Positions 19,153-36,996 of a stretch of 64,000 nt of DNA are shown here, in pieces. The notes beneath the pieces were generated by a model. The model was not told where the DNA came from. It saw only the letters and a list, made by a program, of their open reading frames with translations, and did not search any database. Both the position numbers and the translations under genes were made by a program. This DNA comes from Thiohalobacter thiocyanaticus. Its GTDB lineage: Bacteria > Pseudomonadota > Gammaproteobacteria > Thiohalobacterales > Thiohalobacteraceae. Where the stretch lies: contig NZ_AP018052.1 of NCBI RefSeq assembly GCF_002356355.1, positions 1,984,001 to 2,048,000 of the forward strand. Reading direction: 5' to 3'. The first letter of the stretch is position 1; each line of letters opens with the position of its first letter.

Positions 19153-19815
19153 TCAGGCCCCGGGCCGGGCGCCGGCCGACTCGATCTCGATCACCCCGTG
19201 GCTGACCGCCAGGCGCATCAGTTCGATGTCGTTGTCCACGCCGAGCTTCTCGTAGAGCCGGTAGCGATAGGTATTGACCGTCTTCGGACTCAGGCACAGG
19301 CGATCGGAGATCTCCTGGATGCCGCGCCCCTGGGTGACCATCATCATCACCTGGATCTCGCGCTGGGACAGCTTCTCGAATGGCGAGCGCCCGCCGTTAT
19401 TGAGCTTGGACAGCGCGATCTGCTGGGCCACCTCGGCGCACAGATAGCGCTCACCCTGCATCACGCTCAGGATGGCCTGGGTGATCTCCTCGACCGCGCA
19501 TGACTTGGTGAGATAGCCCAGCGCGCCGGCCTCGAGCATGCGCGAGGGGAAGGGCTCGTCGGTATGCACCGTGACCACGATCACGCGGATCTCCGGGTGG
19601 ATCTGGATCAGCTTGCGCAGGGTTTCCAGCCCGCCGATACCGGGCATGTTCACATCCAGGATGACCATATCGGGACGCGCATCGCGAACCACCTCGATCG
19701 CCTCCTCCCCGGTACTCGCCTCGCCGATCACCCGCACATTGGGGTCATCCTCGAGGATACGGCGTATCCCTGCCCGCACCAGGTCATGATCATCCACCAG
19801 CAACAACGAAATCAT
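19153..19815 (-). CDS. uvrY: response regulator of the UvrY/GacA type
   Basis: A 220-residue two-component regulator. The receiver domain starts ISLLLVDDHDLVRAGIRRIL, with phospho-acceptor Asp54 in VILDVNMPGIGG and a conserved Thr/Lys region (TVHTDEP, YLTKSCA). The C-terminal LuxR-type helix-turn-helix is LSQREIQVMMMVTQGR with LSPKTVNTYRYRLYEKLGV. Sequence and location upstream of uvrC match UvrY/GacA, which drives small RNAs that antagonise CsrA. GGGAGGAGG lies 3-4 bp before the ATG at 19815, a strong but tightly spaced site. The cognate BarA/GacS kinase is not in the window. Confidence 0.93.
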   Translation of the reverse strand: MISLLLVDDHDLVRAGIRRILEDDPNVRVIGEASTGEEAIEVVRDARPDMVILDVNMPGIGGLETLRKLIQIHPEIRVIVVTVHTDEPFPSRMLEAGALGYLTKSCAVEEITQAILSVMQGERYLCAEVAQQIALSKLNNGGRSPFEKLSQREIQVMMMVTQGRGIQEISDRLCLSPKTVNTYRYRLYEKLGVDNDIELMRLAVSHGVIEIESAGARPGA

Positions 19816-20120
19816 ATCCTCCTCCCTGTGATTGATTGTTGTTCTGCCAGGTTCGTCATTCATGAATGTACAATACTGATTATGCGTATTTAATACCAGG
19901 ATGCAATGTCGGTTGGACAACTGTTGTTGCAACTGCTTGACACCCTGCAGCCACAGGCCGATCCGCTTGCCGATCAAACACCTGCGGTCAACGGCAGGTG
20001 CATCACGGCAGGCACTGTTGCAAGGTCATTACACCTCCAGCTCGTCGCCGCTTCTCACCTCACCTCGCAGCCCTCTCCCAACACCAGAAAAAACAGTCAG
20101 TTGCATGGATTCAGCCGCCA
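19816..20120. other. divergent control region between the uvrY-type gene and the glycine-rich locus
   Basis: No gene. It holds the uvrY-type promoter region and the upstream activating region of the sigma-54 promoter at 20121. A TGTC-N5-GACA dyad at 19907-19919 and repeated GTTG/CAAC palindromes around 19917-19935 could bind a regulator, but no site is proven. Confidence 0.5.
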
Positions 20121-20136
20121 TGGCACAGGCCTTGCT
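20121..20136 (+). promoter_or_regulatory. sigma-54 promoter of the glycine-rich operon
   Basis: TGGCAC-AGGCC-TTGCT matches the sigma-54 consensus TGGCAC-N5-TTGCW at every defined position. The GC of the -12 element is 42 bp before the first ATG, so the leader would be about 30 nt and include the AAAGGAG ribosome-binding site. A sigma-54-dependent activator is encoded at the other end of the same locus. Confidence 0.88.
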
Positions 20137-20177
20137 CTTGCGTCTGTGTACAACCCTCAACAGCAAAGGAGCAGGAC

Positions 20178-21302
20178 ATGAAAAACCTATTCAGACCGGC
20201 ACTGGTGACGGCCTCTGCCGCAGCCCTGGTGTTGAGCTACGCAGCCGGGGTGCAGGCGAACCCCAAGAACAAGTTCGGCAACGACAACGACGCCCATGTG
20301 ACGTCGACCGCGACCGCCACTGCCAACGGCGGCGACGGCGGCTACGTCTATGGCGGTGACGGCGGTGAAGGCGGAGATGCCACTGCCGATTCCGCCACCG
20401 GCGGCGCAGGCGGTGCCGGCGGCGCGGCCGATACGGCCGGCGCCGGCGGGATGGGCGGTACTGCCACGGCCAACAGCGAATCCTTCAATTCCGACATCGA
20501 GGTGATCTCCTATCAGACCATGACCTCCACTGTCACCGGCGCTCCGGTCCGGATTCTGGGCGGCACCGGCGGCCAGGGCGGCGACGGCAGCGACGGCGCA
20601 CTGGGTGTCGGCGCCTCGGTCGGCCTGGCCGGCGGCGGCGGCGACGGTGACGACGGCGGTGACGGCGGCCTCGGCGTCGGCGCCTCGGTCGGTCTTGCCG
20701 GAAGTGCGGCTGACGGCGGCGACGGTGACGATGGCGGCGACGGCGGCTACGGCGGCAGCGGTCATGCCGACTCCACGGCCAGCACCGGTTCCAGCTATGC
20801 CGGCAGCAACAGCGCCGACGGCGGCGATGCCAGCAGTGGCGAGGGCGGCGAAGGCACTGCCACCAACACCGCCGGCAATGGCGGCACCTCCGGCGGCAAC
20901 AGTGCCAGCGGCGGCACTGCCACGGCCGGTAATGCCAGCGGCGCCGGCGGTGGCGGCGGGGCCGGCGGGGCCGGCGGCAGCGGCGGTGACGGCGGCACCG
21001 GCGGCAGCGCCACGGCCGGCGCGGCCACAGGCAGCGGCGGCGCAGGCGGCGCCGGTGGCAGCGGCGGTGACGGCGGCATGGCCACAGCCGGCGCGGCCAC
21101 GGGTACCGGCGGCGCAGGCGGGGCCGGCGGCAACGGCGGCGAAGGCAGCGGCGGTGCGCTGACCACCGGTTCAGTGGCAGTGAACACCGGCGCGGGCACC
21201 TTCGGCGGCATTGCCAACATCAATGTCTCCTCCGGCCTGTACAACTCCACCCTGGGCGGCGTCTCGGTGGCGGCTCACTCCGATGTGAGCATCGGTAACT
21301 GA
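20178..21302 (+). CDS. secreted glycine-rich repeat protein 1 (putative fibre subunit)
   Basis: 374 residues. A Sec signal peptide (cleavage likely after GVQA, residue 27) precedes a mature protein dominated by Gly, Ala, Ser, Thr, Asp and Asn in loose GGxGG / NGGDGG / GGAGGAGG repeats. It has no cysteine in the mature part. Two less repetitive blocks stand out: residues 95-125 (NSDIEVISYQTMTSTVTGAP) and the C-terminus (TGSVAVNTGAGTFGGIANIN, then VSSGLYNSTLGG). The second block is nearly identical in the next gene. Composition and neighbours (C39 peptidase, FapF-like barrel) suggest an exported, self-assembling surface protein such as a Fap-like amyloid. Adhesin or biofilm matrix protein is an alternative. 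AAGGAG sits 8 bp upstream of the ATG. Confidence 0.7.
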   Translation: MKNLFRPALVTASAAALVLSYAAGVQANPKNKFGNDNDAHVTSTATATANGGDGGYVYGGDGGEGGDATADSATGGAGGAGGAADTAGAGGMGGTATANSESFNSDIEVISYQTMTSTVTGAPVRILGGTGGQGGDGSDGALGVGASVGLAGGGGDGDDGGDGGLGVGASVGLAGSAADGGDGDDGGDGGYGGSGHADSTASTGSSYAGSNSADGGDASSGEGGEGTATNTAGNGGTSGGNSASGGTATAGNASGAGGGGGAGGAGGSGGDGGTGGSATAGAATGSGGAGGAGGSGGDGGMATAGAATGTGGAGGAGGNGGEGSGGALTTGSVAVNTGAGTFGGIANINVSSGLYNSTLGGVSVAAHSDVSIGN

Positions 21303-21321
21303 TTCCACAAGGAGAATGATC

Positions 21322-22452
<1,131 letters not shown>

Positions 22453-22474
22453 GGCATAAGGTCCGCTTCGGGTC

Positions 22475-22504
22475 TGCGCGGGGACGGCAGATCGTCCCCG
22501 CGCA
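22475..22504 (+). other. strong stem-loop between fibre-type genes and processing genes
   Basis: TGCGCGGGGACG / CGTCCCCGCGCA, a perfect 12-bp stem with a 6-nt loop and no T-tract, 22 bp after the second glycine-rich gene. Probably an mRNA 3'-end stabiliser or partial terminator that keeps the upstream messages abundant relative to downstream genes (inference). Confidence 0.65.
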
Positions 22505-22542
22505 CCTGCACGTCAACCGCACGGGATGAGAGGGACACGCCC

Positions 22543-22935
22543 ATGTGCCACCCCAGTCGAGAATTCAAACTCAGCAGCGCACTGGTCATGCTGTCGGTCT
22601 GGACCATCCTCGTCTTCGCCAGCCAGTCTGTCCACGCCGATGATGCGGCCACACCGGGACCCGACCAGTTCGCACAGCTTGCCCCGCTGGACAGCGCGGG
22701 GCTGGATGCACTGCGCGGACGCGACGGCGACAGTCATATCTCGCTCACCAGCAACCAGGACCTCAAGGCCACCGTCAACGGCAGCCTGATCGAGGCCGGC
22801 ACCATGACCAGCGGCTCGGTTACCATCGCCGAGCGGGCCCTGGACAACTTCGGCGGCATCGGCCTGTTCAATATCGTCACCGGCAGCAACAATGCCGTGG
22901 ATGCTGCCATCGGCGTGAACTTCAACCTGCAGTGA
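22543..22935 (+). CDS. small secreted protein sharing the FGGI-N-G-N motif
   Basis: 130 residues with a signal peptide (hydrophobic residues 12-31, cleavage near SVHA). The mature part contains LDSAGLDALRGRDGD (residues 49-62), a weak LxALRG leader-like motif, and a C-terminal block GSVTIAERALDNFGGIGLFN followed by IVTGSNNAVDAAIGVNF. That spacing matches the C-terminal block of the two glycine-rich proteins (GSV, FGGI, N, G, N). It may be a minor subunit or nucleator (FapB/FapE-like) or a small amyloid-type protein. Length and position before the peptidase gene are consistent with this, but no family is recognised with certainty. Confidence 0.6.
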   Translation: MCHPSREFKLSSALVMLSVWTILVFASQSVHADDAATPGPDQFAQLAPLDSAGLDALRGRDGDSHISLTSNQDLKATVNGSLIEAGTMTSGSVTIAERALDNFGGIGLFNIVTGSNNAVDAAIGVNFNLQ

Positions 22936-22940
22936 CAGGC

Positions 22941-23642
22941 ATGCGTCTCCATCCCTGCCCTGCTCTGCTGCTGGCACTGTCCGCCGCCCTGGTCGCGCCC
23001 GGCAGCGCCGCGGGCCAGCTGCGCCTGCATGCCTTTCCCGGCGCCTTTTCCCTGCCGGTGGAAAGCCAGATCGAAGCACGCTGGCAGACGGTGGTCAGGC
23101 AACAATACGATTTCAGCTGCGGCTCGGCCGCCGTGGCCACCCTGCTCACGTATCACTACACCTCGCCGGCAGGTGAGGATCAGGTGTTCCAGGAGATGTA
23201 TGCGGCCGGCGACCAGGCCAAGATCCGCGCCGAGGGCTTCTCCATGCTGGACATGAAACGCTACCTGGACCGTCGCGGCCTGCAGACCGATGGCTTTCGC
23301 ATGGACCTGGACAAACTGGCTGCACTGGGCGTGCCGGGGATCGTACTGGTCAATACCCGCGGCTATCGCCACTTCGTGGTGGTACGGGGGGTGCAGTCCG
23401 GCCGGGTACTGCTGGCCGACCCGGCCGCGGGCAACGTCGCCATTTCGCGTGCTGAATTCGAGCGGATCTGGAACGGGGTGGTGCTGGCCGCCCGCGGCCG
23501 ACTGGAGACCGCCCGGACCCATTTCAACCTGGAACGCGACTGGCGCGACTGGCCGCGGGCCCCCATCCATGCCCCGACACGCCAGGCGGGCATGAGCCCG
23601 TTGCTGCTCAACCTGCCCGGCCGGCTCGAACTGGGCCGCTGA
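22941..23642 (+). CDS. C39 family cysteine peptidase (FapD-like)
   Basis: 233 residues. A signal peptide (residues 1-24) is followed by a C39 peptidase domain like that of bacteriocin-processing transporters but without any ABC transporter. The catalytic set is visible: QQYDFSCGSAAVATLLTYHY (Gln, Cys59), GYRHFVVV (His143) and LLADPAAG (Asp159). The stand-alone secreted C39 form, surrounded by repeat proteins and a coiled-coil barrel, is the arrangement of FapD in Pseudomonas. It probably processes a partner protein in the periplasm. It starts 5 bp after the preceding stop. Confidence 0.88.
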   Translation: MRLHPCPALLLALSAALVAPGSAAGQLRLHAFPGAFSLPVESQIEARWQTVVRQQYDFSCGSAAVATLLTYHYTSPAGEDQVFQEMYAAGDQAKIRAEGFSMLDMKRYLDRRGLQTDGFRMDLDKLAALGVPGIVLVNTRGYRHFVVVRGVQSGRVLLADPAAGNVAISRAEFERIWNGVVLAARGRLETARTHFNLERDWRDWPRAPIHAPTRQAGMSPLLLNLPGRLELGR

Positions 23643-23656
23643 CAGGCGCGATCGAC

Positions 23657-24259
23657 ATGTTCAATCCCACCCCGGCCACATACCGCAGTCTGCACAGCAC
23701 CGCCCTCCTGCTGGCCCTCACGCTTGCCGCAGGTACGAGTCATGCGCATGACCCCTTCCCCGACCAGGTTCTCGCGGCTGCCGACCTGGCTGCGCTGCGC
23801 GGCGGTTTCTCCCTGCGCGGCCTGGAGATGGAATTCGGCGCCTCCCTGCGCAGTTTCCAGGACGGACGCCTGCTCATGGAAACCCTGGTCAATGTCACGG
23901 ACCGCGGCACGCGCACCACCACGACCATTCCGCGGGCACTCGACACCCTGTCCCCCGGGCCGGACACGGCAGCGCGGACCGGCAGCCGTCCAGCGGCGGC
24001 CAACCGCGGCATCGAACTCAACGGCCTGGGCAACGCCGGGCGGGTTGTGGTGAACGATGCCCGCGGCGTGACCGCCTCCATCCATGAGGTGACCCGCCAG
24101 CGCATCCTCGGCGTCCTGGTCGGCCGTGCCACCGATACGGCCCTGCGCCAGGAGGCGCAGGTGGACGTCACCATCCGCAACTTCAGCCAGTTCCAGCAGA
24201 CGGTTCGTCAGGCCATCCTCAATAACCACCTGGGACGCAGTTCCGCGCCCCTGCAATAA
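23657..24259 (+). CDS. secreted protein with LAALRGG motif, C39-associated
   Basis: 200 residues with a signal peptide (residues 1-30, ending SHA). Soon after comes ADLAALRGGFSLRG (residues 42-55), which looks like a double-glycine leader of the type cut by C39 peptidases. The remainder is not glycine-rich; it has beta-strand-like stretches (LEMEFGASLRSFQDGRLLME, IELNGLGNAGRVVVNDARG) and a C-terminal helix with Gln/Asn (FSQFQQTVRQAILNNHLG). It could be a FapE- or FapA-like accessory protein or a peptidase substrate. It is the last plus-strand gene of the locus and converges with the barrel gene 22 bp away. Confidence 0.6.
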   Translation: MFNPTPATYRSLHSTALLLALTLAAGTSHAHDPFPDQVLAAADLAALRGGFSLRGLEMEFGASLRSFQDGRLLMETLVNVTDRGTRTTTTIPRALDTLSPGPDTAARTGSRPAAANRGIELNGLGNAGRVVVNDARGVTASIHEVTRQRILGVLVGRATDTALRQEAQVDVTIRNFSQFQQTVRQAILNNHLGRSSAPLQ

Positions 24260-24281: not shown

Positions 24282-25541
24282 TCAGAAGGTATAGGGCAGG
24301 CGCAGGGTCATGACCACATCCGGGGCATCGGCGGTCACACCCAGTTCCAGGTTGAGGTTCACCGCGGCGCGTTCGGTCAGCTGGAAACCGTAGCCGAGGA
24401 GCATGGCGCCGACGTCCAGACTGGAGGTCGACAGCTTCACGCCGTTGATCTCAGTGTCGGTCTCCTGGATGAAGTCATGCTTGTAGCCGAGGGTGAAAGA
24501 GGCCCGCGGATTGATGGCATAGCCCATGCCGAAGCTCAGGCGTACCGCATCGCCGGGGTCGACCTTGCCGATGGTCTGCTGGCCGAAGGTCTTGTTCACA
24601 TCGTCCTCGATATGCCAGAGATAACCCAGGTTGGCGAAGAACACGGCGGGATCGGAGGGATACAGCAGGGTCAGACTCGGTTCCAGGGCATGAAAACCCG
24701 AGCCTGTTGCCAGTTCGGTCTCTATGCCGTCGCCGTTGCGGTTGACATCGAACGGCCCCCGGCCGGTCACGGACTTGTAGCGCAGGTTGCCGACATAGTA
24801 CATATTGCCCGGCCAGCGCCAGTCTAACTGGTAGTGCAGCGCAAGCTCCAGATCACCGATACTGTCACCGTCCAGGGTGCGGCTGAAGGCCTCGCCCTCC
24901 ACATCCGGGATGGTCGCCACCCGCCGGTCCTTGCGATAGACATAGGGCAGCTTCGCCTCCAGTTCCAGCCGGTCGGTCAGACCATAACGGCCGGTCAGGG
25001 AAACGGCCAGGTAATCCCGGTCCACGTCCACCGCTTCCAGCAGCCCGATCTGGAAGGCCTCCAGGATTTCCACCCCGATGAAGGTCAGACGATTGATCTG
25101 GGAATTGGAGAACTGCAGCCCCGGCTCCAGGATCAGCTGACCCCGGGGCGTGAGGACACCGCCCAGTTCGGGAATGGCGCGCACCTCGGGCGGCTCCGAC
25201 ACGCTCGCCGGCGGTGCCGTCCCGACCGGTTGCGCAGGCGGCGCAGAGGCTGCCTGCACCGCCGGGGCCGCCGCGGCGGGTCCGGCGCCACGCCGGTCCT
25301 CGAGTGCGGTCGCGGGCAGGGCCTGCCGGTTCAGGCTGTCGAGTGCCCGGCGCTGCTGCTGCAGACGCCGCTCCTGGGCAGCGATGGTGGCTGCCTGGCG
25401 CTCCAACTGGCGTTGCTGCTGGTCCAGCAGCCGTTCCATGCGTTCCAGCCGCTGCGCCAGGGAGTCCGCCTCGTCAGCGAACCCGGGCATGACCAGGACC
25501 AGGGTCAGCGTCAGGAGACTCAACCGCGCCCCGTACTGCAT
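24282..25541 (-). CDS. FapF-like outer-membrane beta-barrel with N-terminal coiled coil
   Basis: 419 residues. A signal peptide (1-22) precedes a coiled coil (about 24-72; Leu/Gln/Arg heptads such as [20 protein letters not shown]), a Pro/Ala-rich linker (75-125), then a beta-barrel starting near [20 protein letters not shown] and ending in the canonical C-terminal phenylalanine (LPYTF). The string from LTPRG through [36 protein letters not shown] follows the FapF pattern known from Pseudomonas, a trimeric channel that exports amyloid subunits. The ATG at 25541 has GGGAGG upstream and overlaps the regulator gene end by 22 bp, indicating translational coupling. Confidence 0.82.
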
Positions 25542-26974
25542 GACCAGCCTCCCGGTTCGAGTGACGCCTCGCCATTGATGCGCAGTTCCCTGATCCCCTC
25601 TGCGGGCGGCGGCTCCCGAGTCTGCCCGATCGGGATCCGGTGCTTGTCCAGCAACCGGTACAGGGTGACGCGGGAAATCCCCAGGGAGCGTGCCGCCTCG
25701 GAGAGATTGTTGCGTGCCAGACGCAGACTGGTGCGGATCGCCCGGCTCTCGGCTTCGGCCCGCACCTGCTGCAGGGAAGGCACCATCCGGCGGCCGTTGC
25801 GCCGATCCAGCCCCAGGTCGGCGGGTGTGATCAACCTGCCCTCGGCCATCACGATCGCCCGCCGCACCCGGTTGATCAGTTCCCGCACATTGCCGGGCCA
25901 GTCGTGGCGCAGCAGGCACTGCAGGGCCTGCTCGCTGAACCCCTTGACCTGCACTCCGCGTTCCCGGCCGAAGCGCTCGAACTGCTGCCAGGCCAGGGCC
26001 TCGATATCCTCGGTCCGCTCCCGCAGCGGCGGTACCTGCAACCGCAGCACATTCAGCCGGTAGTACAGGTCTTCGCGAAACCGCCCCTGATCCACGGCCA
26101 GTTCCAGGTCCTGGTGGGTGGCGGCAATGACGCGCGCATCGATGCGCACCGGCTGGGTGCCGCCAACCCGGTCCACCGTGCCTTCCTGCAGGAAGCGCAG
26201 CAGACTGGTCTGCTGCTCCAGCGGCAGGTCGCCGATTTCGTCCAGGAACAGGGTCCCGCCGGCTGCCGACTCGATGCGGCCGATCTTGCGCCGGACGGCC
26301 CCGGTAAAGGCCCCCTTCTCATGCCCGAACAGTTCCGACTGCACCAGGCTGGCCGGCAGCGCTGCACAATTGACCGCCACCAGCGGTCCGCTGGCGCGCA
26401 GGGAGCGACGATGAATCGCAAGCGCCGTGAGTTCCTTGCCGGAACCGGATTCGCCGGTGATCAGGACCGGTGCCTCGACCTGCCCGATCTTGTCGAGTTG
26501 CCGGAACAGCTGCCGCATGCACGCGCTGTTGCCGACCATGCCGCCTGCGGTGACCGCATCGCCTGCGGCCGTCGCATGGGCACTGGCACGGATGGCAGCC
26601 ACGCCGGCGGCGTGCCCCAGGCTGTCCAGCAGGCGCCTGGAATCGACCGGGAAGGTATGAAAATCGAAGACGCCATCGGCCAGCAGCCGGGACAGGGCAT
26701 CGGAGCGGACATCCTCCGGTTGAACCAGCGCCAGCCACTGGGTCTGTGTCTGGCTGTCGAGCAGCAACTGCTCGAAGTCCCGACAAGCGCGGGATGCGCT
26801 GGCATTGAGCCACGCCAGGCCCACCGGGCAGTGGCGGCTGGCGAGGCGCTGACGGGCTTCGTCCAGACTGCCGGCCAGCGAGATCCGCCAGCCGGCCTGT
26901 CCGAGTTGAAGGGCCAGATCCGTCCCGACGCGAACCGGATCCCAGAACAGCAGATTACGGGGTTCACTGGCCAC
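25520..26974 (-). CDS. sigma-54-dependent activator of the VpsR type
   Basis: 484 residues. The N-terminal receiver-like domain (about 1-125) lacks the acidic pocket and phospho-acceptor of true receivers, as in VpsR-type proteins. The AAA+ domain has Walker [12 protein letters not shown], the sigma-54 loop GAFTGAV (in [14 protein letters not shown]), Walker [14 protein letters not shown] and [11 protein letters not shown]. The Fis-type helix-turn-helix is [20 protein letters not shown]. It probably activates the sigma-54 promoter at 20121. The gene leads the minus-strand unit that also carries the barrel gene, so secretion pore and regulator are coupled. Confidence 0.9.
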
Positions 26975-28058: not shown

Positions 28059-29294
28059 ATGCCGAAGAGAGCCAAGGAGCTGGGCGCAGCCGAAGTGCGC
28101 CGACTGAACAAGCCCGGTTTGAACCCCGTGGGCGGGGTGGCCGGACTGTATCTCCAAGTTGCCGAATCCGGCGCACGGAGCTGGATACTGCGCGTCACAG
28201 TCGGCAGCAAGCGCCGTGACATCGGCCTGGGGGGCTATCCTGATGTGCCCTTGGCACAGGCCCGCGAGAAGGCCCGAGAGATGCGAGAGCAGATCCGGGA
28301 GGGCGTTGACCCGGTATTGCAGCGCAAGGCTGCCAGGGATGCCCTGATAGCCGCACAGGCCAAGGTCATCACCTTCGATGAAGCCGCCCGGCGATTCATC
28401 AAGGCCAAGGCCCAGGAGTTCCGCAACCCCAAGCATACCGCCCAATGGGAGACCACCCTGCAAGCCTACGCCAGCCCCGTGATAGGCCGCCTCCCCGTCG
28501 ATGCCGTCACCCTGCCCCATATCGTGCAGATACTTGAGCCGATATGGACGGAGAAAACCGAGACCGCCACCCGGCTGCGAGGGCGCATTGAGTCGGTCCT
28601 GTCATGGGCGACCGTCTCCGGGTTCCGGTCGGGAGACAACCCCGCCCGCTGGCGCGGCAATCTGGATGCCGTCCTGCCCAAGCCGGGCAAGCTGCGACAG
28701 GTCCAGCACTTCCGCGCCCTGCCCTGGGCCGAGGCCCCGGCCTTCATGGCCGCTCTGCGGGAGCGTGAGGGTGTCGGCTCGCGAGCGCTGGAGTTCCTGA
28801 TACTCACCGCCGGCCGCTCTGGAGAGGTCCGCGGGGCGACCTGGGAGGAAATCGACCTGGAGGCCCGGACGTGGACCGTGCCGGCCGAACGGATGAAGGC
28901 GCAGCGGGAACATGTTGTGCCGCTCTGCCCCGATGCCGTGAAGCTGCTGAAGGCTCTGCCGCGCTTCGAGGATTGCCCCTATGTGTTCCCCTCCCCCCGT
29001 GGCAAGCAGCTCAGTGACGCCACCCTGTCCAAGGTCATGAAGCTGATGGGCGTGGAAGGCACGCCGCACGGGTTCCGCTCCACCTTCCGCGACTGGTGCG
29101 CCGAGCATACGAATTACCCGCGAGAGGTCGCCGAGAAGGCGCTGGCCCACACCATCCCCAACGCAGTAGAGCGGGCCTACCGACGCGGCGATCTGCTGAC
29201 CAAGCGCACGCGGCTGATGCAGGAATGGGCACGGTATCTCAAGAGCCCGGCCAAGGCTGGCGAAGTTGTGTCGATTCAGAATAAGAGCGCCTGA
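28059..29294 (+). CDS. tyrosine recombinase, DUF4102 (P4-type) integrase
   Basis: 411 residues. The N-terminal DUF4102 domain (about 1-90; PGLNPVGGVAGLYLQV, RRDIGLGGYPDVPLAQAREK) is followed by a core-binding SAM-like domain and the catalytic domain. Conserved catalytic residues are seen in LTAGRSGEVRGATW (first Arg), HGFRSTFRDW (His and Arg) and ERAYRRGD (nucleophilic Tyr). This family integrates islands and prophages into tRNA 3' ends, which agrees with the tRNA-Ser repeats. GGAG lies upstream of the ATG. It is located at the end of the element away from the intact tRNA. Confidence 0.95.
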   Translation: MPKRAKELGAAEVRRLNKPGLNPVGGVAGLYLQVAESGARSWILRVTVGSKRRDIGLGGYPDVPLAQAREKAREMREQIREGVDPVLQRKAARDALIAAQAKVITFDEAARRFIKAKAQEFRNPKHTAQWETTLQAYASPVIGRLPVDAVTLPHIVQILEPIWTEKTETATRLRGRIESVLSWATVSGFRSGDNPARWRGNLDAVLPKPGKLRQVQHFRALPWAEAPAFMAALREREGVGSRALEFLILTAGRSGEVRGATWEEIDLEARTWTVPAERMKAQREHVVPLCPDAVKLLKALPRFEDCPYVFPSPRGKQLSDATLSKVMKLMGVEGTPHGFRSTFRDWCAEHTNYPREVAEKALAHTIPNAVERAYRRGDLLTKRTRLMQEWARYLKSPAKAGEVVSIQNKSA

Positions 29295-29295
29295 C

Positions 29296-29910
29296 ATGGC
29301 CGGCAAAGTCACTTATAAAAAAACCGATTTGCATGCGGGCGGCTGGTATGGAACCCGCCCCTTAAGCGTTTCACAGCGTATGCAACTGAGTTGTTTAATA
29401 GGCCGCCGCCTATCATATAGAGAGGCAAGACGGATAGAAAAGTTTGCCAACGAGATCCGCGCAAATCTGCGGGTTATCAGCGATCCGAGCGTTAGTAATC
29501 AAGACATCAAGAGAACCCTTGCCGCCATTTCAAAACTTTCACCCGCAGAGGCAGAGGCAGCATATACAAAGGCTGATGATGACACCCGTTGCCTGATTGT
29601 TGATGCCTTGCTCGATTTGAACGCATGGGGGCCACGACCCAAAGGCGCAGACATTTGCCGAGCAGCCGCTACCGCCGTACCCCGTAAGAGATCCGGACGG
29701 CCCCAAAAAGGTGAGATAGTAGATCAGATGATTGCTGGTTCGCTCAAACTCTGGCGTGACTTAGGCGGCGATCCCGATGCAAAGGCATGGCACCGAGACG
29801 GTCAATCTAGCCCACTGGTCCGTTTTGTCCATATCATTGCCACAGAGGCCGAATACCCCACCGGCCTGGATCACATAGCCAAGGCAATTCGCCCCTATCT
29901 GAGCGGGTAA
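29296..29910 (+). CDS. unknown accessory protein of the element, 204 aa
   Basis: Not recognised. It begins with the sequence MAGKVTYKKTDLHAGGWYGT one base after the integrase stop and is probably translated from the same message. It appears soluble and mostly helical, with a basic N-terminal half (LIGRRLSYREARRIEKFANE) and a C-terminal helix pair (HIIATEAEYPTGLDHIAKAI). Its base composition is visibly lower in GC than its neighbours (TTATAAAAAAACC, TTGTTTAATAGG), suggesting separate origin. Genes in this slot of satellites are often cargo, including defence or regulation, but nothing in the sequence proves that here. Confidence 0.65.
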   Translation: MAGKVTYKKTDLHAGGWYGTRPLSVSQRMQLSCLIGRRLSYREARRIEKFANEIRANLRVISDPSVSNQDIKRTLAAISKLSPAEAEAAYTKADDDTRCLIVDALLDLNAWGPRPKGADICRAAATAVPRKRSGRPQKGEIVDQMIAGSLKLWRDLGGDPDAKAWHRDGQSSPLVRFVHIIATEAEYPTGLDHIAKAIRPYLSG

Positions 29911-29988
29911 GGTTTTTCCCTGTGCTATAGATCACCGCATGCGGCTAGTTTGTACTCGTGTCCATGATTTAACACGAGGTAAGCCGCA

Positions 29989-30195
29989 ATGGTTCCATTT
30001 CCCCAGCCGATCAAGCTAAACGGCTCAACTCGCTTTCCCCCGACCGCAATCCATGAGTGGGAGGCATCCCACGGCCTGGATCTGCCGCCGCTGACCGGGA
30101 TGGTGAACGTCAAGCAACTCGCTGCGCGCTATGGCGTATCCGTTGCCACGATCTGGCGATGGGCGCAGAAGGCCCGCAAGGACGCCGCAGCATGA
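29989..30195 (+). CDS. AlpA-like regulator with its two halves in reversed order
   Basis: 68 residues. The first half (FPQPIKLNGSTRFPPTAIHE, about residues 4-23) resembles the C-terminal half of AlpA-type excisionases (FPxPVKLG...WxExxIxxW). The second half (MVNVKQLAARYGVSVATIWR, about 38-57) resembles the N-terminal helix-turn-helix half. A TAA lies in frame 9 bp before the ATG, so the usual N-terminal half is not simply missing from my reading. It is likely a DNA-binding excision or transcription regulator. The next gene starts inside its stop codon (ATGA overlap). Confidence 0.7.
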   Translation: MVPFPQPIKLNGSTRFPPTAIHEWEASHGLDLPPLTGMVNVKQLAARYGVSVATIWRWAQKARKDAAA

Positions 30196-30347
30196 ACAGC
30201 CCGACCCCTGACCAGATCCGCCGCGCCGCGCTGAATACCGTCCAGGCACCGCGCAACCGCACCGACGAAGCCCGACGCGCACTGCGCCAGCGGGCAAGGC
30301 CGCCCGAGCGGGAGGCCCTGGAGCGCAAGCTGCGCGGCACACCTTAA
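30192..30347 (+). CDS. small basic protein of the element, 51 aa
   Basis: Starts by ATGA overlap with the AlpA-like gene, which supports its being real despite its length. Very rich in Arg and Ala (NTVQAPRNRTDEARRALRQR) with one predicted amphipathic helix. No recognised family; possibly a nucleic-acid-binding or regulatory peptide. It ends 28 bp before the primase gene. Confidence 0.5.
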   Translation: MNSPTPDQIRRAALNTVQAPRNRTDEARRALRQRARPPEREALERKLRGTP

Positions 30348-30375
30348 CCATCGTCGTGAGGACGAAGGAGGCGAA

Positions 30376-32595
30376 ATGCAGGAATTAAAAAACCCGGAGG
30401 CGGAGGCAACCGCGCACCGGGCACAAGCAATGGATACACAGCCGAATGATAGCGCCCTTGCGTTTGCGCTGCAATTGGCTGAATCCGGCCTGCCGGTGTT
30501 TCCCTGCCGAGAGGACAAATCGCCCCGGACCGCCCGAGGCTTCCATGACGCGAGCACTGACCCGACCACAATCAGGGGATGGTGGAGCCGTTGGCCCGGT
30601 GCCCTGATCGGCGTGCCGACCGGCCCTGTGACTGATCTGCTAGTGATTGACATTGATCCAGGCGGAGCGGACTGGCATAGCGAGCACGCCGCCGATCTGG
30701 CCTGTGGTCGCGTCCATCGGACCCAGCGCGGGCACCACCTGCTGTATCGGCACGTCAATGGCGTGAAATGCAGCGCGGGCAAGATTGCGCCCGGAGTCGA
30801 TGTGCGGACCGATGGCGGATACGTCATATGGTGGCCTGCGCATGGACTGGAGGCAGTCGGCGACCTGGATGACATAGGCGAGGCCCCGGCGTGGCTGCTG
30901 GAGAAGCTGCGCGATCAAAAGCAGCACCAGTCGGCCATACAAGCCACAGGCGACACGATCCCGGAGCAGACCCGCAACACCACACTGACCAGCCTTGCGG
31001 GCAGTATGCGCCGCCGTGGGCTAAGTGCGGAGGAAATCGCGCCCGCACTGCACGCAATCAATGAGGCAAGGTGCCGCCCGCCCCTGGACCGTGCCGACGT
31101 TGACCGGATTGCGGCCAGTGTTGGGCAATATCCTCCAGCGAGTGAACAGGCACCGGCCTACACCGACGCAGGCAATGCGCAACGGCTTGTCGCGGCGCAT
31201 GGCGAGGATCTGCGCTATGTCCCAGAGTTGGGATGGATGGCATGGGATGGCACCCAATGGGCGCGGGATGAATTGCTAGCGCGGCGCAAGGCAATCGAAA
31301 CCGCCCGCGCCATATACAACGAAGCCGCCGCGCTGGAATCCACCGACGACCAGAAAGCAGCGGCGGCATGGGCAAAACAATCTCAGCAGGCCGGCAGGGT
31401 TCAGGCTGCCTTGTGGCTGGCACAACCGGACCTTGCCGCGCCTGTTGATGCGTTCGACCGCGATCCGTGGATATTCCCCGCGATCAATGGCGTGATCGAC
31501 CTGCGGACCGGCGACTTGCACCCGCACCGCCGCGAGTACATGAACACCCGCGCCACTGCGGTTTACTTCGACGCCACAGCACTGTGCCCGACATGGGAGA
31601 CCTTTCTGGCCCGTGTCCTGCCTGATGCGGAAGTCCGAACCCTGGTGCAACGGCTGGCCGGCTACTCGCTGACCGGCGCGACCAGTGAGCAAGTCCTGGC
31701 ATTCCTGTACGGCACAGGGCGCAACGGGAAATCCGTATTCCTGGAGACCCTGGCCGCCTTGGCAGGCGATTACCACACCCCGACCCGAATCGAGACCTTG
31801 AGCGCAGGACGCGGCGCGGGCATCCCCAACGATGTTGCCGCCCTGGCCGGTGCGCGCCTTGTCACTGTTTCGGAGACCCCCGAGGGCGCCCGCCTGAATG
31901 AGTCCCTGGTGAAAGACCTGACCGGCGGCGACACGATTACAGCGCGGTTCCTGCGGCGTGAGTACTTCCAGTTTCAGCCGCAGTTCAAGCTATGGATTCG
32001 CGGCAACCACAAGCCCCAGATTCGCGGCACCGACGATGGTATCTGGCGGCGGCTGCTGCTGATCCCCTTCACGGTTCAGATTCCCGAGCGGGACGTAGAC
32101 CCGAAGCTACCCGAGCGGCTGCGCGATGAACTGCCCGGCATCCTGGCATGGGCGGTGCGTGGCTGTCTGGATTGGCAGACCAATGGACTACAGCCGCCCG
32201 AGGCGGTCAAGGCCGCAGTGAGCACCTACCGCACTGAGATGGATATGTTGGGCGAGTTTATCGAGTCCTGCTGTGTGACCGACCCTGCCGAGGAGGCCCC
32301 CGCCGCCGCACTGTATGGACGCTACAGGGAATGGGCCACTTCAAACGGGCATCAGCCCGTATCAAGTATGCGTTTCGGCCTGGCCCTGGGGGAGCGTGGA
32401 TTCAGCAAGATAAAAAGCGGGACTGTCCGCTGGCGTGGGATTGCCCTATCTGGACACTTGGACACTTTGGACACTTCTCCTAGTTCGTCAGATTCGCGCG
32501 CGCGCGATCCCGTTAATGCCGGAATAGTGTCCGAACTGTCCAACTGTCCGCAATGCGATGGCGAGGGCTGCCCGTGGTGTGGGGGTGGGGCATGA
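30376..32595 (+). CDS. bifunctional primase-helicase (prim-pol plus D5/P4-type helicase)
   Basis: 739 residues. The N-terminal prim-pol domain has LPVFPCREDKSPRTARGFHD, LIGVPTGPVTDLLVIDIDP (catalytic acidic pair) and RGHHLLYRH. After a linker (about residues 190-330) comes a D5_N/P4-like domain and a superfamily 3 helicase with Walker A LYGTGRNGKSVFLETLAAL and a second motif KLWIRGNHKPQI. It would start and unwind replication of the excised element. AAGGAGG precedes the ATG. It is followed by two overlapping small genes in one operon. Confidence 0.93.
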   Translation: MQELKNPEAEATAHRAQAMDTQPNDSALAFALQLAESGLPVFPCREDKSPRTARGFHDASTDPTTIRGWWSRWPGALIGVPTGPVTDLLVIDIDPGGADWHSEHAADLACGRVHRTQRGHHLLYRHVNGVKCSAGKIAPGVDVRTDGGYVIWWPAHGLEAVGDLDDIGEAPAWLLEKLRDQKQHQSAIQATGDTIPEQTRNTTLTSLAGSMRRRGLSAEEIAPALHAINEARCRPPLDRADVDRIAASVGQYPPASEQAPAYTDAGNAQRLVAAHGEDLRYVPELGWMAWDGTQWARDELLARRKAIETARAIYNEAAALESTDDQKAAAAWAKQSQQAGRVQAALWLAQPDLAAPVDAFDRDPWIFPAINGVIDLRTGDLHPHRREYMNTRATAVYFDATALCPTWETFLARVLPDAEVRTLVQRLAGYSLTGATSEQVLAFLYGTGRNGKSVFLETLAALAGDYHTPTRIETLSAGRGAGIPNDVAALAGARLVTVSETPEGARLNESLVKDLTGGDTITARFLRREYFQFQPQFKLWIRGNHKPQIRGTDDGIWRRLLLIPFTVQIPERDVDPKLPERLRDELPGILAWAVRGCLDWQTNGLQPPEAVKAAVSTYRTEMDMLGEFIESCCVTDPAEEAPAAALYGRYREWATSNGHQPVSSMRFGLALGERGFSKIKSGTVRWRGIALSGHLDTLDTSPSSSDSRARDPVNAGIVSELSNCPQCDGEGCPWCGGGA

Positions 32596-32936
32596 GGTGC
32601 GGAGATTGTGTCCGCCGCGTCCGAGGCCGTTGCACTGTCCATCGGGCCAAGGTCGGCATGAAACAGGACGCTACCCAGTGCCGCCAGTTCACCCACCGCT
32701 TGCGTCTGGAGGATCTGCCGCCCCGTTACCGCCGGCACGTCCGCCGGCTGGAGCAGCGAGAGGATGGCAGCCGGGCAATCCAGTTGCGAGCCACCGCCCG
32801 GCATGATCCAGAGTTGCGCGAATTCCTGTACCTGATGGTCGGGATCAAACTGGTGCCGGTGCAGCCGGTTGCACTGTCTGAGCCTGAGCCGCGACAGGAG
32901 GCCCCGAGACGGCAGGCGGGAGGTAATGCGGCATGA
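32592..32936 (+). CDS. small Cys-containing protein of the element, 114 aa
   Basis: ATGA overlap with the primase stop. The N-terminus MRCGDCVRRVRGRCTVH carries a CxxC-x7-C-x2-H cluster, which could bind zinc. It is rich in Arg and probably binds nucleic acid. It is not a member of a family I can name. Same operon as the primase, so a replication accessory role is plausible. Confidence 0.6.
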   Translation: MRCGDCVRRVRGRCTVHRAKVGMKQDATQCRQFTHRLRLEDLPPRYRRHVRRLEQREDGSRAIQLRATARHDPELREFLYLMVGIKLVPVQPVALSEPEPRQEAPRRQAGGNAA

Positions 32937-33118
32937 CTGACAGATCTCCCGAGGGAGAGCCGGAGAGCTTGCAGCAGGGGCTTTTGGCTTATACCCGAGG
33001 CTGCCCTTGCGATGGCTGTGATCTGTGGAATTACTGCGCAGAGACTCAGCAGGAATGCAAGACATTCCGCCGGTGGGTACAGACTGGCAAGGCACCTGGC
33101 GATGTGGAGGCCCCATAG
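32933..33118 (+). CDS. small zinc-ribbon-like protein, 61 aa
   Basis: ATGA overlap with the previous gene. It contains the cysteine array CPCDGCDLWNYCAE...C, five cysteines in about 25 residues, suggesting a metal-binding knuckle. It is the last gene of the replication operon, before a long non-coding stretch. Function unknown. Confidence 0.6.
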   Translation: MTDRSPEGEPESLQQGLLAYTRGCPCDGCDLWNYCAETQQECKTFRRWVQTGKAPGDVEAP

Positions 33119-33204
33119 GGTGCATGAAGTTCCGCCCAGCATCCCCGGAAATCAACGCGCGAGTAAAAAAATCGCGCTGTCACATTATTTTTTTGGAAAG
33201 GTCG

Positions 33205-33241
33205 ATGGAGAGAGACCCATAGCCCCAATAATCTTGAAAAC
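33205..33241 (+). repeat. direct repeat copy 1 (ATGGAGAGA type)
   Basis: ATGGAGAGAGACCCATAGCC at its core. It matches 33317-33354 at roughly 30 of 38 positions by eye. Confidence 0.6.
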
Positions 33242-33316
33242 AAGCGATTCCCGAAACCAACGCCGAAATTTTCTTTCGCTAATCCCGCCTAAAAACGGGA
33301 AAAACAGACCGGAAAA

Positions 33317-33354
33317 ATGGAGAGACCACCATAGCCCCCTAAATCTTCAGAACC
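33317..33354 (+). repeat. direct repeat copy 2 (ATGGAGAGA type)
   Basis: ATGGAGAGACCACCATAGCC at its core, the second copy of the repeat at 33205-33241, same orientation, about 112 bp apart. Confidence 0.6.
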
Positions 33355-33461
33355 CTATGTGCGTTGACCAACGCGCCCCCTTTCTGTGCAGCAGCGGGAG
33401 TTTCAACAAGGGGGTATTAGAGGCCATACGAGACACTATGAAACAACAGGAGACACAGAGC

Positions 33462-33704
33462 ATGACAAATCGAGATGAAGCAGTCCAACAATTCGCGGAT
33501 GCACTGTCCGAGCTGGTATCGACCGGCATTGAGTCCCTGGACCCCGGCGCGAGCGATGTAGTGAGGCAGGCCGTGGCGCAAGGTCGGGCACGGATCACGG
33601 TTCACGCTGAAACTGGCCCGCTGACCATATCGTGCCGCCTGCGCGTCGATGACGAAGATGTGCCGCTGTTCGATATTGGGATGGAACAGGCGACAATGAA
33701 CTGA
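33462..33704 (+). CDS. small acidic protein of the element, 80 aa
   Basis: The start is chosen at 33462 because CAGGAG lies 9-10 bp upstream; the ATG at 33438 has no such site. Acidic and soluble: an N-terminal helix (DEAVQQFADALSELVSTGIE), then strands (ARITVHAETGPLTISCRLRV). Not recognised. It stands between the repeat region and the capsid gene and could be a regulator or head-associated protein. Confidence 0.55.
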   Translation: MTNRDEAVQQFADALSELVSTGIESLDPGASDVVRQAVAQGRARITVHAETGPLTISCRLRVDDEDVPLFDIGMEQATMN

Positions 33705-33893
33705 ATAGGGTTGCTGGATAAAACCACAGTGGTATACTCGGATGCGTGAACAAGCTATTCACAACCCAGAACAGCACGCTCCTGCGCGGAGGCGATGGTG
33801 GTGCTGTCGACAATTCCAAATTCATTTGGTGTCGGCAGGCGCAACCCCCTCCTACTGTGGAGACGCGAACCTACCGGCACGATGGAGGTTCGT

Positions 33894-35204
33894 ATGAACA
33901 CAGTAGCGCAGTTCAAAGAGCGGCTTAACGAAGCCCGCAACGATGTCCGCGACCTGATCGAGCTGAAAGGCGAGATCCGTGCGGCAGCATCTTCCCTCAA
34001 TACCACTGCCAAAGCCGAGAAGCGCAACCTTAACGAGGTTGAGCAGCGCGAGTTCGATGCGCTGATGGACCTGGTGGAGGACGTCAACAAGGCGCACGAG
34101 GATGCCCTGGTTGAGCGTGAGCAGCAGCGCAGCGCGGCGGCGGCCCACCTTCGCGGCCAGCGTACCCACGAGCCGACCGATAGCGGCTGGATCACCCGCG
34201 ACGGCAAGCCGGTCAACGTCCTGACCAAGGAACAGCGGGCCGCGCCGATCCTGTCCGATCCCAGCAGCGAGGTCCGTCTGGGCTCCCTCATCCGCGCAAT
34301 GGCTCTCGGTCCGAAGAACGAGGCCGAACGCCGCGCCTTGTCTGAGGGTTCTGACTCAGCAGGCGGCTACACCGTCCCCAGCACTCTTATGGGCGATCTG
34401 GTGGACACCTTGCGGGCAAAGGCCCGCGTGATCGAGGCCGGGGCGCGCACCGTCCTGTTGCCGAGCAATGCCGTCATGATTGCCCGGCAGATCACGGACC
34501 CGAGCGCCACCTGGCACGCGGAGAACGCCGCCGACTTCAACGACTCTACCCCGACCTTTGCCGGTATCCGGTTCCAGGCGAAAACCCTGATCGGGCTGGT
34601 GAAGCTGTCGCGGGAACTGTTGGAGGATTCCATGAACATCGAGTCGGCCATCCTCAACAGCTTCGGCAAGTCCCTGGCCCTGGAGGTCGACCGCGTGGCC
34701 CTGGTGGGCTCTGGAGCCGGTAACGAGCCGCTGGGCATCGTCAACACCAGCGGCATCGGTCTGGTTTCTCAGCCGACGCCCGACGGTTTCCCGCTCTACG
34801 CGTGGGATTCGTTCTTTGATGCCATGTACGAGCTTCAGCAGGACAATGCCGGACCGCCTACGGCAGCCATCATGCACCCGCGCACCTGGCGGGACATTTA
34901 CAGCATGAAGGACGGCGAAGGCCAGCCGCTGCGGCGTCCTGATCCCCTCGTTGACCTGCCGTTCCTGACCACGACTCAGATCCCGATTGATGACAGCTAC
35001 GGCAGCGCCACCGATGCGACGAAGATGATTATGGGCGATTTCAATTCGCTGATGATCGGGGTTCGCACCGGCCTGCAAATTGATGTCCTACGGGAGCGGT
35101 ATGCCGAGAACTACCAGTATGGGTTCCTGGCATCCATGCGCGTCGACGTCGCCCTTGAAACCCCTGAGTCCTTCGCCGTGGTCGAAGGCATCACCCCGGC
35201 ATAA
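33894..35204 (+). CDS. HK97-type phage major capsid protein
   Basis: 436 residues. An N-terminal delta/scaffold region (about 1-110) is highly charged and helical (EARNDVRDLIELKGEIRAA). The HK97 fold follows: EGSDSAGGYTVPSTLMGDLV, a P-domain with LVKLSRELLEDSMNIESAIL, GAGNEPLGIVNT, and near the C-terminus ADTMKMIMGDF-like DATKMIMGDFNSLMIG. GGAGG 5-6 bp before the ATG at 33894 sets the start; an in-frame upstream ATG is less likely. The delta domain implies that scaffold removal needs a protease, which is not encoded in the element. Confidence 0.93.
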   Translation: MNTVAQFKERLNEARNDVRDLIELKGEIRAAASSLNTTAKAEKRNLNEVEQREFDALMDLVEDVNKAHEDALVEREQQRSAAAAHLRGQRTHEPTDSGWITRDGKPVNVLTKEQRAAPILSDPSSEVRLGSLIRAMALGPKNEAERRALSEGSDSAGGYTVPSTLMGDLVDTLRAKARVIEAGARTVLLPSNAVMIARQITDPSATWHAENAADFNDSTPTFAGIRFQAKTLIGLVKLSRELLEDSMNIESAILNSFGKSLALEVDRVALVGSGAGNEPLGIVNTSGIGLVSQPTPDGFPLYAWDSFFDAMYELQQDNAGPPTAAIMHPRTWRDIYSMKDGEGQPLRRPDPLVDLPFLTTTQIPIDDSYGSATDATKMIMGDFNSLMIGVRTGLQIDVLRERYAENYQYGFLASMRVDVALETPESFAVVEGITPA

Positions 35205-35216
35205 GGAGGCATCAAA

Positions 35217-35651
35217 ATGTCACTGCTGAATCAGAACGTGAAAATCACCCCGGCCCTGGCCTACGCCAGCGGCACGGCTGACCGAAACGGCGCTGTCCTG
35301 GATATGCAGGGCTTTGAAGGTGTGATGATCGTTACCCACTTCGCCACCCTGGCAACAGGCGCGGTCACGTCCATCAAGGCGCAGTCCGGCACGGCTACCG
35401 GCATGGGCGATGCCGCCGATCTGGAGGACACCGGCCAGAGCGTGGCGGCAGACGATGACGATGAGATCTTTGTCATTGATCTGTTCCGGCCCCGCGAGCG
35501 GTATGTCCGCCTCGTGGTGGATAAGGACGGCAGCAACGCCACGGCGGAGAGCGCGACATACATTCAGTATGGGGCGAAGTACCCGCCGGTCAGCAACGCC
35601 ACCGGCGTAACGCTGGAGGAACATCAGTCCCCCGCTGAGGGTACAGCTTGA
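35217..35651 (+). CDS. capsid-associated protein, 144 aa (possible decoration protein)
   Basis: Starts 12 bp after the capsid gene with AAGGAGG upstream. A beta-rich, acidic protein (MQGFEGVMIVTHFATLATGA, RYVRLVVDKDGSNATAESAT) with no cysteine. Similar-sized beta proteins follow capsid genes in many phages and act as head decoration or stabilisation proteins. I infer this from position and composition; the family was not identified. A strong terminator follows 124 bp later. Confidence 0.65.
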   Translation: MSLLNQNVKITPALAYASGTADRNGAVLDMQGFEGVMIVTHFATLATGAVTSIKAQSGTATGMGDAADLEDTGQSVAADDDDEIFVIDLFRPRERYVRLVVDKDGSNATAESATYIQYGAKYPPVSNATGVTLEEHQSPAEGTA

Positions 35652-36904: not shown

Positions 36905-36920
36905 ATTGGCGGAGGGGGTG
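36905..36920. repeat. attachment site, tRNA end
   Basis: ATTGGCGGAGGGGGTG, identical to 27780-27795. It overlaps the 3' end (CCA and acceptor strand) of tRNA-Ser. Confidence 0.85.
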
Positions 36921-36996
36921 GGATTCGAACCCACGGAGGTCGTTAAACCTCGCCGGTTTTCAAGACCGGTGCTTTCAACCGCTCAGCCACCCCTCC
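36907..36996 (-). tRNA. tRNA-Ser (UGA)
   Basis: Reverse-strand type II tRNA: acceptor GGAGGGG/CCCCTCC, D-arm GGCTGAGCGGTTGAAAGC, anticodon stem-loop GGTCTTGAAAACC (TGA), long variable arm, T-arm GGGTTCGAATCCC, and encoded CCA at 36907-36909. A TACAAT -10-like element lies 12 bp upstream of its 5' end (37008-37013, minus). It is the integration target of the element. Confidence 0.96.

Follow-up and report, generated by a model that had tools for sequence, protein, structure and literature searches.

The region analyzed here, hereafter the window, is a stretch of 64,000 nucleotides of the Thiohalobacter thiocyanaticus genome. Between positions 19153 and 26974 it carries a cluster of genes for exported proteins, a peptidase, an outer-membrane channel and regulators, together with a short array of candidate control sites:

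19153-19815, minus strand: divergent response regulator of the UvrY/GacA family (NCBIfam NF007018, 294 bits, cut-off 280)
19924-19943, plus strand: candidate distal enhancer dyad, TTGTTGCAACTGCTTGACAC, starting 197 bp upstream of the -24 element
20015-20034, plus strand: candidate proximal enhancer dyad, CTGTTGCAAGGTCATTACAC (TGT-N12-ACA), starting 106 bp upstream of the -24 element
20121-20136, plus strand: sigma-54 promoter element, TGGCACAGGCCTTGCT, exact consensus, conserved in homologous loci
20147, plus strand: predicted transcription start, deduced from the GC of the -12 element at 20134-20135
20178-21302, plus strand: glycine-rich exported protein 1 (374 aa, 33% Gly), probable fibre subunit and first gene of the operon
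21322-22452, plus strand: glycine-rich exported protein 2, probable fibre subunit, following a 19-bp gap and without an element of its own
22543-22935, plus strand: small exported protein with no family match, whose C-terminal motif resembles that of the subunits
22932-23642, plus strand: FapD-like C39 peptidase (PF03412, 82 bits; NCBIfam C39_FapD)
23657-24259, plus strand: exported protein without a family, final gene of the plus-strand operon
24282-25541, minus strand: FapF-like outer-membrane channel with an N-terminal coiled-coil stretch (NCBIfam FapF; PDB FapF)
25520-26974, minus strand: BrfA-type sigma-54 activator (VpsR domain, AAA+ domain with GAFTGA, Fis-type HTH)

The gaps between successive genes of the plus-strand operon are 19, 90, -4 and 14 bp, and an orthologue of glycine-rich protein 1 is found at the same place in three homologous loci (L109, L110 and L112). 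In NCBIfam the best match of the C39 peptidase is FapD (147 bits, under the equivalog cut-off of 330) and that of the channel is FapF (137 bits, under the equivalog cut-off of 700). The channel protein is built of a coiled coil and a β-barrel, and its only meaningful solved relatives in the PDB are the FapF structures 5o65-5o68 (E ~1e-26), which were accompanied by one chance-level match. The FapB and FapC models do not match the glycine-rich proteins, whose only likeness, on visual inspection, is a short C-terminal motif. The system is therefore named Fap-like and not Fap. As in the Fap system, a C39 peptidase, a channel of coiled coil plus barrel and several small exported subunits are gathered in one cluster; unlike in the Fap system, HMM scores stay under the equivalog cut-offs, and the subunits and gene order are different. 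The arrangement also departs from that of Pseudomonas in that the fapF-like gene lies on the minus strand and overlaps the activator gene, and in that the subunits are glycine-rich. Since this overlap amounts to 22 bp, the two genes probably share one transcript. Judged from its sequence, the locus would encode a Fap-like functional-amyloid system with glycine-rich subunits. About 1.1 kb separate the start of the activator gene from a prophage-like region (28059-35651 and beyond) that carries tyrosine integrase, primase/helicase and capsid-like genes; the minus strand also encodes a tRNA at 36910-36996.

Within the window, GAFTGA occurs in no protein other than the activator (25520-26974). The initial annotation had relied on this fact, which holds within the window; as evidence it is weak, because the genome contains 19 strong PF00158 matches, and the sole-candidate argument was dropped. 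The N-terminus of the protein matches the VpsR domain PF20161 (53.5 bits, cut-off 23.7). In an alignment with the neighbouring UvrY-type receiver, the phospho-acceptor Asp is replaced by Trp and the conserved Lys is lost. The N-terminal domain is thus predicted to be a receiver-fold, VpsR-type sensor which is not phosphorylatable in the usual way, in agreement with the initial annotation. Resemblance to Vibrio cholerae VpsR extends from this domain to the AAA+ core (PDB 7v2b, E = 2e-65). VpsR acts with sigma-70, so that "VpsR-like", as the protein had been described, is true of the sensor domain and not of the mode of activation: unlike VpsR, the window protein has the GAFTGA loop and a sigma-54 promoter with a conserved element, and the sigma-70-dependent activation typical of VpsR does not apply to it.

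The best solved relatives of the activator are ZraR, NifA and FleQ. Like FleQ, PrsR (the PEP-CTERM response regulator) and NtrC, it is an AAA+ sigma-54 activator; unlike them, it scores below the NCBIfam curated cut-offs, as it does for all the named activator families shown there. The LFRS stretch that precedes the AAA+ core in FleQ was not seen in the window activator. The window activator is a GAFTGA-bearing AAA+ protein encoded beside the fapF-like gene, as expected of a BrfA-type activator. A genome search with the activator as query returned mostly unrelated activators, three Pseudomonas loci being useful. In a tree of 44 AAA+ cores, made up of 24 fap-linked activators, 7 sampled paralogues from the same genome and 13 other activators, all 24 fap-linked activators form one clade (support 100/97) apart from the paralogues and the others. 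This clade includes the brfA-position genes of two Pseudomonas loci (L019 and L020), PF07 BrfA itself being absent from the tree. The brfA-position gene of L019 is 1326 bp long, the same length as published for the brfA ORF of P. fluorescens PF07 (PMC9207406).

The 16-base -24/-12 element TGGCACAGGCCTTGCT fits TGGCACR-N4-TTGCW at every position, and the full consensus match first claimed for it is exact. Its GG occupies -25/-24 and its GC -13/-12; the GG-N10-GC arrangement is found here with consensus flanks and at the correct distance from the start codon. The position of the GC places the predicted transcription start at ~20147, which would leave a leader of 31 nt with an AAGGAG ribosome-binding site at 20166-20171 ahead of the ATG at 20178. 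No other site in the window matches TGGCACN5TTGC without mismatch. Matches with one mismatch number 9 in the window against 6.4 expected, which is the chance level. Over the complete 3.23-Mb genome, the exact pattern TGGCACN5TTGCW occurs at 9 sites, compared to 2 for a reversed control pattern. Among the genes downstream of the other exact sites are flgB (L014) and fliL (L015). As these are classic sigma-54 genes, the pattern is informative in this organism. The genome has a single copy of rpoN (524-aa frame, E = 1.5e-152).

Two further exact sites drew attention in their own right. At L018:1501-1725 (genome position 2620128 onward) the sequence after the site contains AACAACAA/AACAAGAA motifs as well as a strong terminator hairpin, making this segment a candidate CrcZ/CrcY-like RpoN-dependent small RNA; it had no Rfam match at the gathering threshold. 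The site at L012:1501-1516 (genome position 689684) lies upstream of a gene for an exported, PEP-CTERM-like protein and is possibly a PrsR-type target.

Conservation of the element upstream of orthologous genes had been proposed as a check. A search for FapD homologues covered 369 genomes of the class, and 40 regions were taken and examined for FapF, the activator and -24/-12 elements. Elements were scored with hand-set weights (maximum 18.8; threshold 15), and tblastn hits no more than ~9.5 kb from fapD were taken as activator homologues, which means that a more distant activator gene counts as absent. Sense-strand elements scoring at least 15 were present upstream of fapD in 16/27 loci with an activator homologue and in 0/12 without one (Fisher p = 4e-4; since related genomes are not independent, this and the other p-values somewhat overstate the evidence). 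On the opposite strand, none of the 27 activator-bearing loci had such an element upstream of fapD. Where the first gene could be called, the elements sit ~45-200 bp before a signal-peptide gene. In the Pseudomonas loci the same place is taken by a variant element, CGGCAC-N5-CTGCT, differing from that of the window. Both position and strand are thus kept in activator-bearing Fap loci. FapD/FapF-type loci without a nearby activator and without the sigma-54 module were also encountered (L115, L121, L124, L158, L160, L161 and others), and these must be regulated differently.

The chance frequency of one-mismatch matches in the window would suit a reading in which the element is an accident of the short intergenic sequence and a sigma-70 promoter serves the operon. 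This is very improbable. Not only the position and strand of the element but also the neighbouring dyads described below are conserved, which refutes an accident in practice, and the element of L109, a locus from the same genus, reaches the maximal score of 18.8/18.8. Moreover, no sigma-70-like site was found on the plus strand between 19700 and 27300. In all likelihood, the 16 bases constitute a genuine sigma-54 promoter of the Fap-like amyloid-fibre operon.

The dyads listed above are candidate enhancers. When palindromes with exact 5-6-base arms were sought, no family common to three or more loci was listed. The TGT-N12-ACA spacing was spotted by eye after this search and then tested. It belongs to a 20-bp dyad common to the regions 70-250 bp upstream of the elements, the best and clearest form of which is CTGTTTCA-N4-TGAAACAG. 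TGT-N12-ACA is present in 27 copies in 18/20 upstream regions, compared to 1.7 expected and to a maximum of 7 in any of 200 dinucleotide shuffles. Other TGT/ACA spacings were mostly near expectation, with spacings 1, 11 and 14 mildly raised. With a matrix trained without the window, 19924-19943 and 20015-20034 ranked first and second among the 64,000 positions of the window. Elsewhere in the genome, no sequence comes within one mismatch of the dyad form found in the window, and the eight remaining exact sigma-54 sites have no dyad (best score 3.2, compared to 14.9 and 14.3 here).

The proximal dyad lies at a like distance in other loci: 103 bp in L110 and 105 bp in L109, L116 and L119, for 106 bp in the window. 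Dyads are also found upstream of the element in the Pseudomonas fap loci, whose activators belong to the same clade; the proximal one is at ~82 bp there. The proximal distances fall at 71-72, 80-84, 95, 102-106 and 115-116 bp. Helical phasing of these distances is suggestive (jitter null p = 0.0004, from a list that includes L142 at 164 bp, really a distal dyad), and it is not used as proof since it was noticed post hoc, the sequences are related and the best period falls at a limit of the range tested. No dyad that could serve autoregulation of the activator gene was found in the window, and this idea was set aside. The UvrY/GacA-family gene shares the intergenic region 19816-20177 with the dyads. 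The distal dyad begins 109 bp ahead of this gene's start codon, so that cross-talk is conceivable; the regulator is probably outside the circuit.

Using leave-one-out matrices, a dyad together with an element was found in 20/28 activator-bearing loci and in 0/15 others. At the thresholds used, 8/28 activator-bearing loci had no dyad plus element, one of them being L108, where the contig ends before the promoter. L112, L114 and L131 have a good element and no good dyad. Three loci of other genomes (L113, L163 and L153) each contain a second dyad plus -24/-12 copy; the one in L113 stands before a near-duplicate subunit gene, as would result from a joint duplication of promoter and subunit.

The association was examined again in an independent set of 40 loci outside matrix building, mostly from a phylum-wide draw. 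Dyad plus element were present in 16/22 loci with an activator and in 1/18 without (p = 1.8e-5). The remaining 6/22 activator-bearing loci did not show the pair at these thresholds; L159, L172 and L177 are further examples of loci that bear the activator and lack the full module. Eight of the 22 are Pseudomonas-type loci, with activators 70-84% identical to a query, and resemble the training loci L019 and L020. The module is present in 7/8 of these and in 9/14 of the other activator-bearing loci; two of the nine (L171 and L174) resemble the training locus L138. The prediction of the initial annotation that the activator switches on the fibre genes is supported by these comparisons, in which the elements are present with the activator and gone without it, again in a separate set of loci.

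The same comparisons bear on a working sigma-54 promoter driven by another activator of the genome, FleQ-, NtrC- or PrsR-like. Candidates are not lacking, given the number of strong PF00158 matches, and several of the exact sites are those of flagellar or other genes. However, the presence of element and dyad tracks the locus-encoded activator across loci, the dyad is missing at the other exact sigma-54 sites of the genome and has a form unique to this place, and in P. fluorescens it is the adjacent BrfA that does the job (PMC9207406). Control by an activator encoded elsewhere is thus improbable.

In P. fluorescens PF07, the -24/-12 promoter of fapA-E was mapped by 5′-RACE, the fap genes are down in rpoN mutants and in brfA mutants, and brfA follows fapF as its immediate neighbour in reverse orientation (PMC9207406). 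A second study also found fap down in an rpoN mutant (PMC8202526). The window resembles the RpoN/BrfA-fapA-E system of PF07 in having a -24/-12 promoter before the first gene and a GAFTGA activator beside fapF in reverse orientation. Since RpoN/BrfA control of fap has been published for P. fluorescens, the mechanism is known. The present analysis adds a candidate operator sequence and predicts that the mechanism also governs a glycine-rich Fap-like system and operates in many gammaproteobacteria besides Pseudomonas.

We hold with high confidence that a functional sigma-54 promoter at 20121-20136, run by the locus-encoded activator via the dyads, drives 20178-24259. This operon would supply the two glycine-rich subunits, the small exported protein, the FapD-like peptidase and the last exported protein, and we infer that the glycine-rich proteins form the fibres. 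The activator would bind the two dyads (19924-19943 and 20015-20034) in dimeric form and assemble into an AAA+ ring, whose GAFTGA loop would remodel the closed complex of RNA polymerase and sigma-54, with transcription beginning at ~20147. The activator and the FapF-like channel would be expressed from a separate minus-strand transcript.

By homology to P. fluorescens BrfA, the activator most likely responds to c-di-GMP, in which case fibre production would accompany a commitment of the cell to life on surfaces or in biofilms. PMC13101488 describes BrfA as an enhancer-binding protein sensing c-di-GMP, citing Guo et al. 2024; binding of c-di-GMP and of the fapA promoter by BrfA is known from P. 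fluorescens alone. VpsR binds c-di-GMP as well (PMC12564702). By this analogy, c-di-GMP is the probable signal, with a confidence clearly lower than that given to the promoter; the FleQ-type LFRS stretch not being seen in the window protein counts against it. The circuit as proposed may instead answer to another signal, for example a partner protein or, in relatives that keep the Asp, phosphorylation. Five fap-linked activators (L127, L132, L138, L139 and L142), unlike the window protein, have an Asp in the receiver at the phospho-acceptor site or close to it and possibly represent a phosphorylation-competent branch. The Trp found at this position in the window protein speaks against phosphorylation here, and the sensing of c-di-GMP by BrfA and its binding by VpsR against another signal generally, which we regard as possible and the less likely case.

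Activator, dyad and -24/-12 element occur together, and what started as a guess about one site has become a predictive rule. This rule takes BrfA control beyond Pseudomonas to many other gammaproteobacteria, and TGT-N12-ACA is a concrete candidate binding sequence for BrfA-type proteins. The glycine-rich proteins of the window are flagged as probable amyloid subunits under biofilm control. Activator, dyads set in steps of about one helical turn, and element may constitute the conserved core of gammaproteobacterial Fap-type loci, in which the subunits are replaced by unrelated repetitive proteins; we judge the chances of this generalization to be evenly balanced. If it is true, the module can be used to find new amyloid subunits that are invisible to sequence search.
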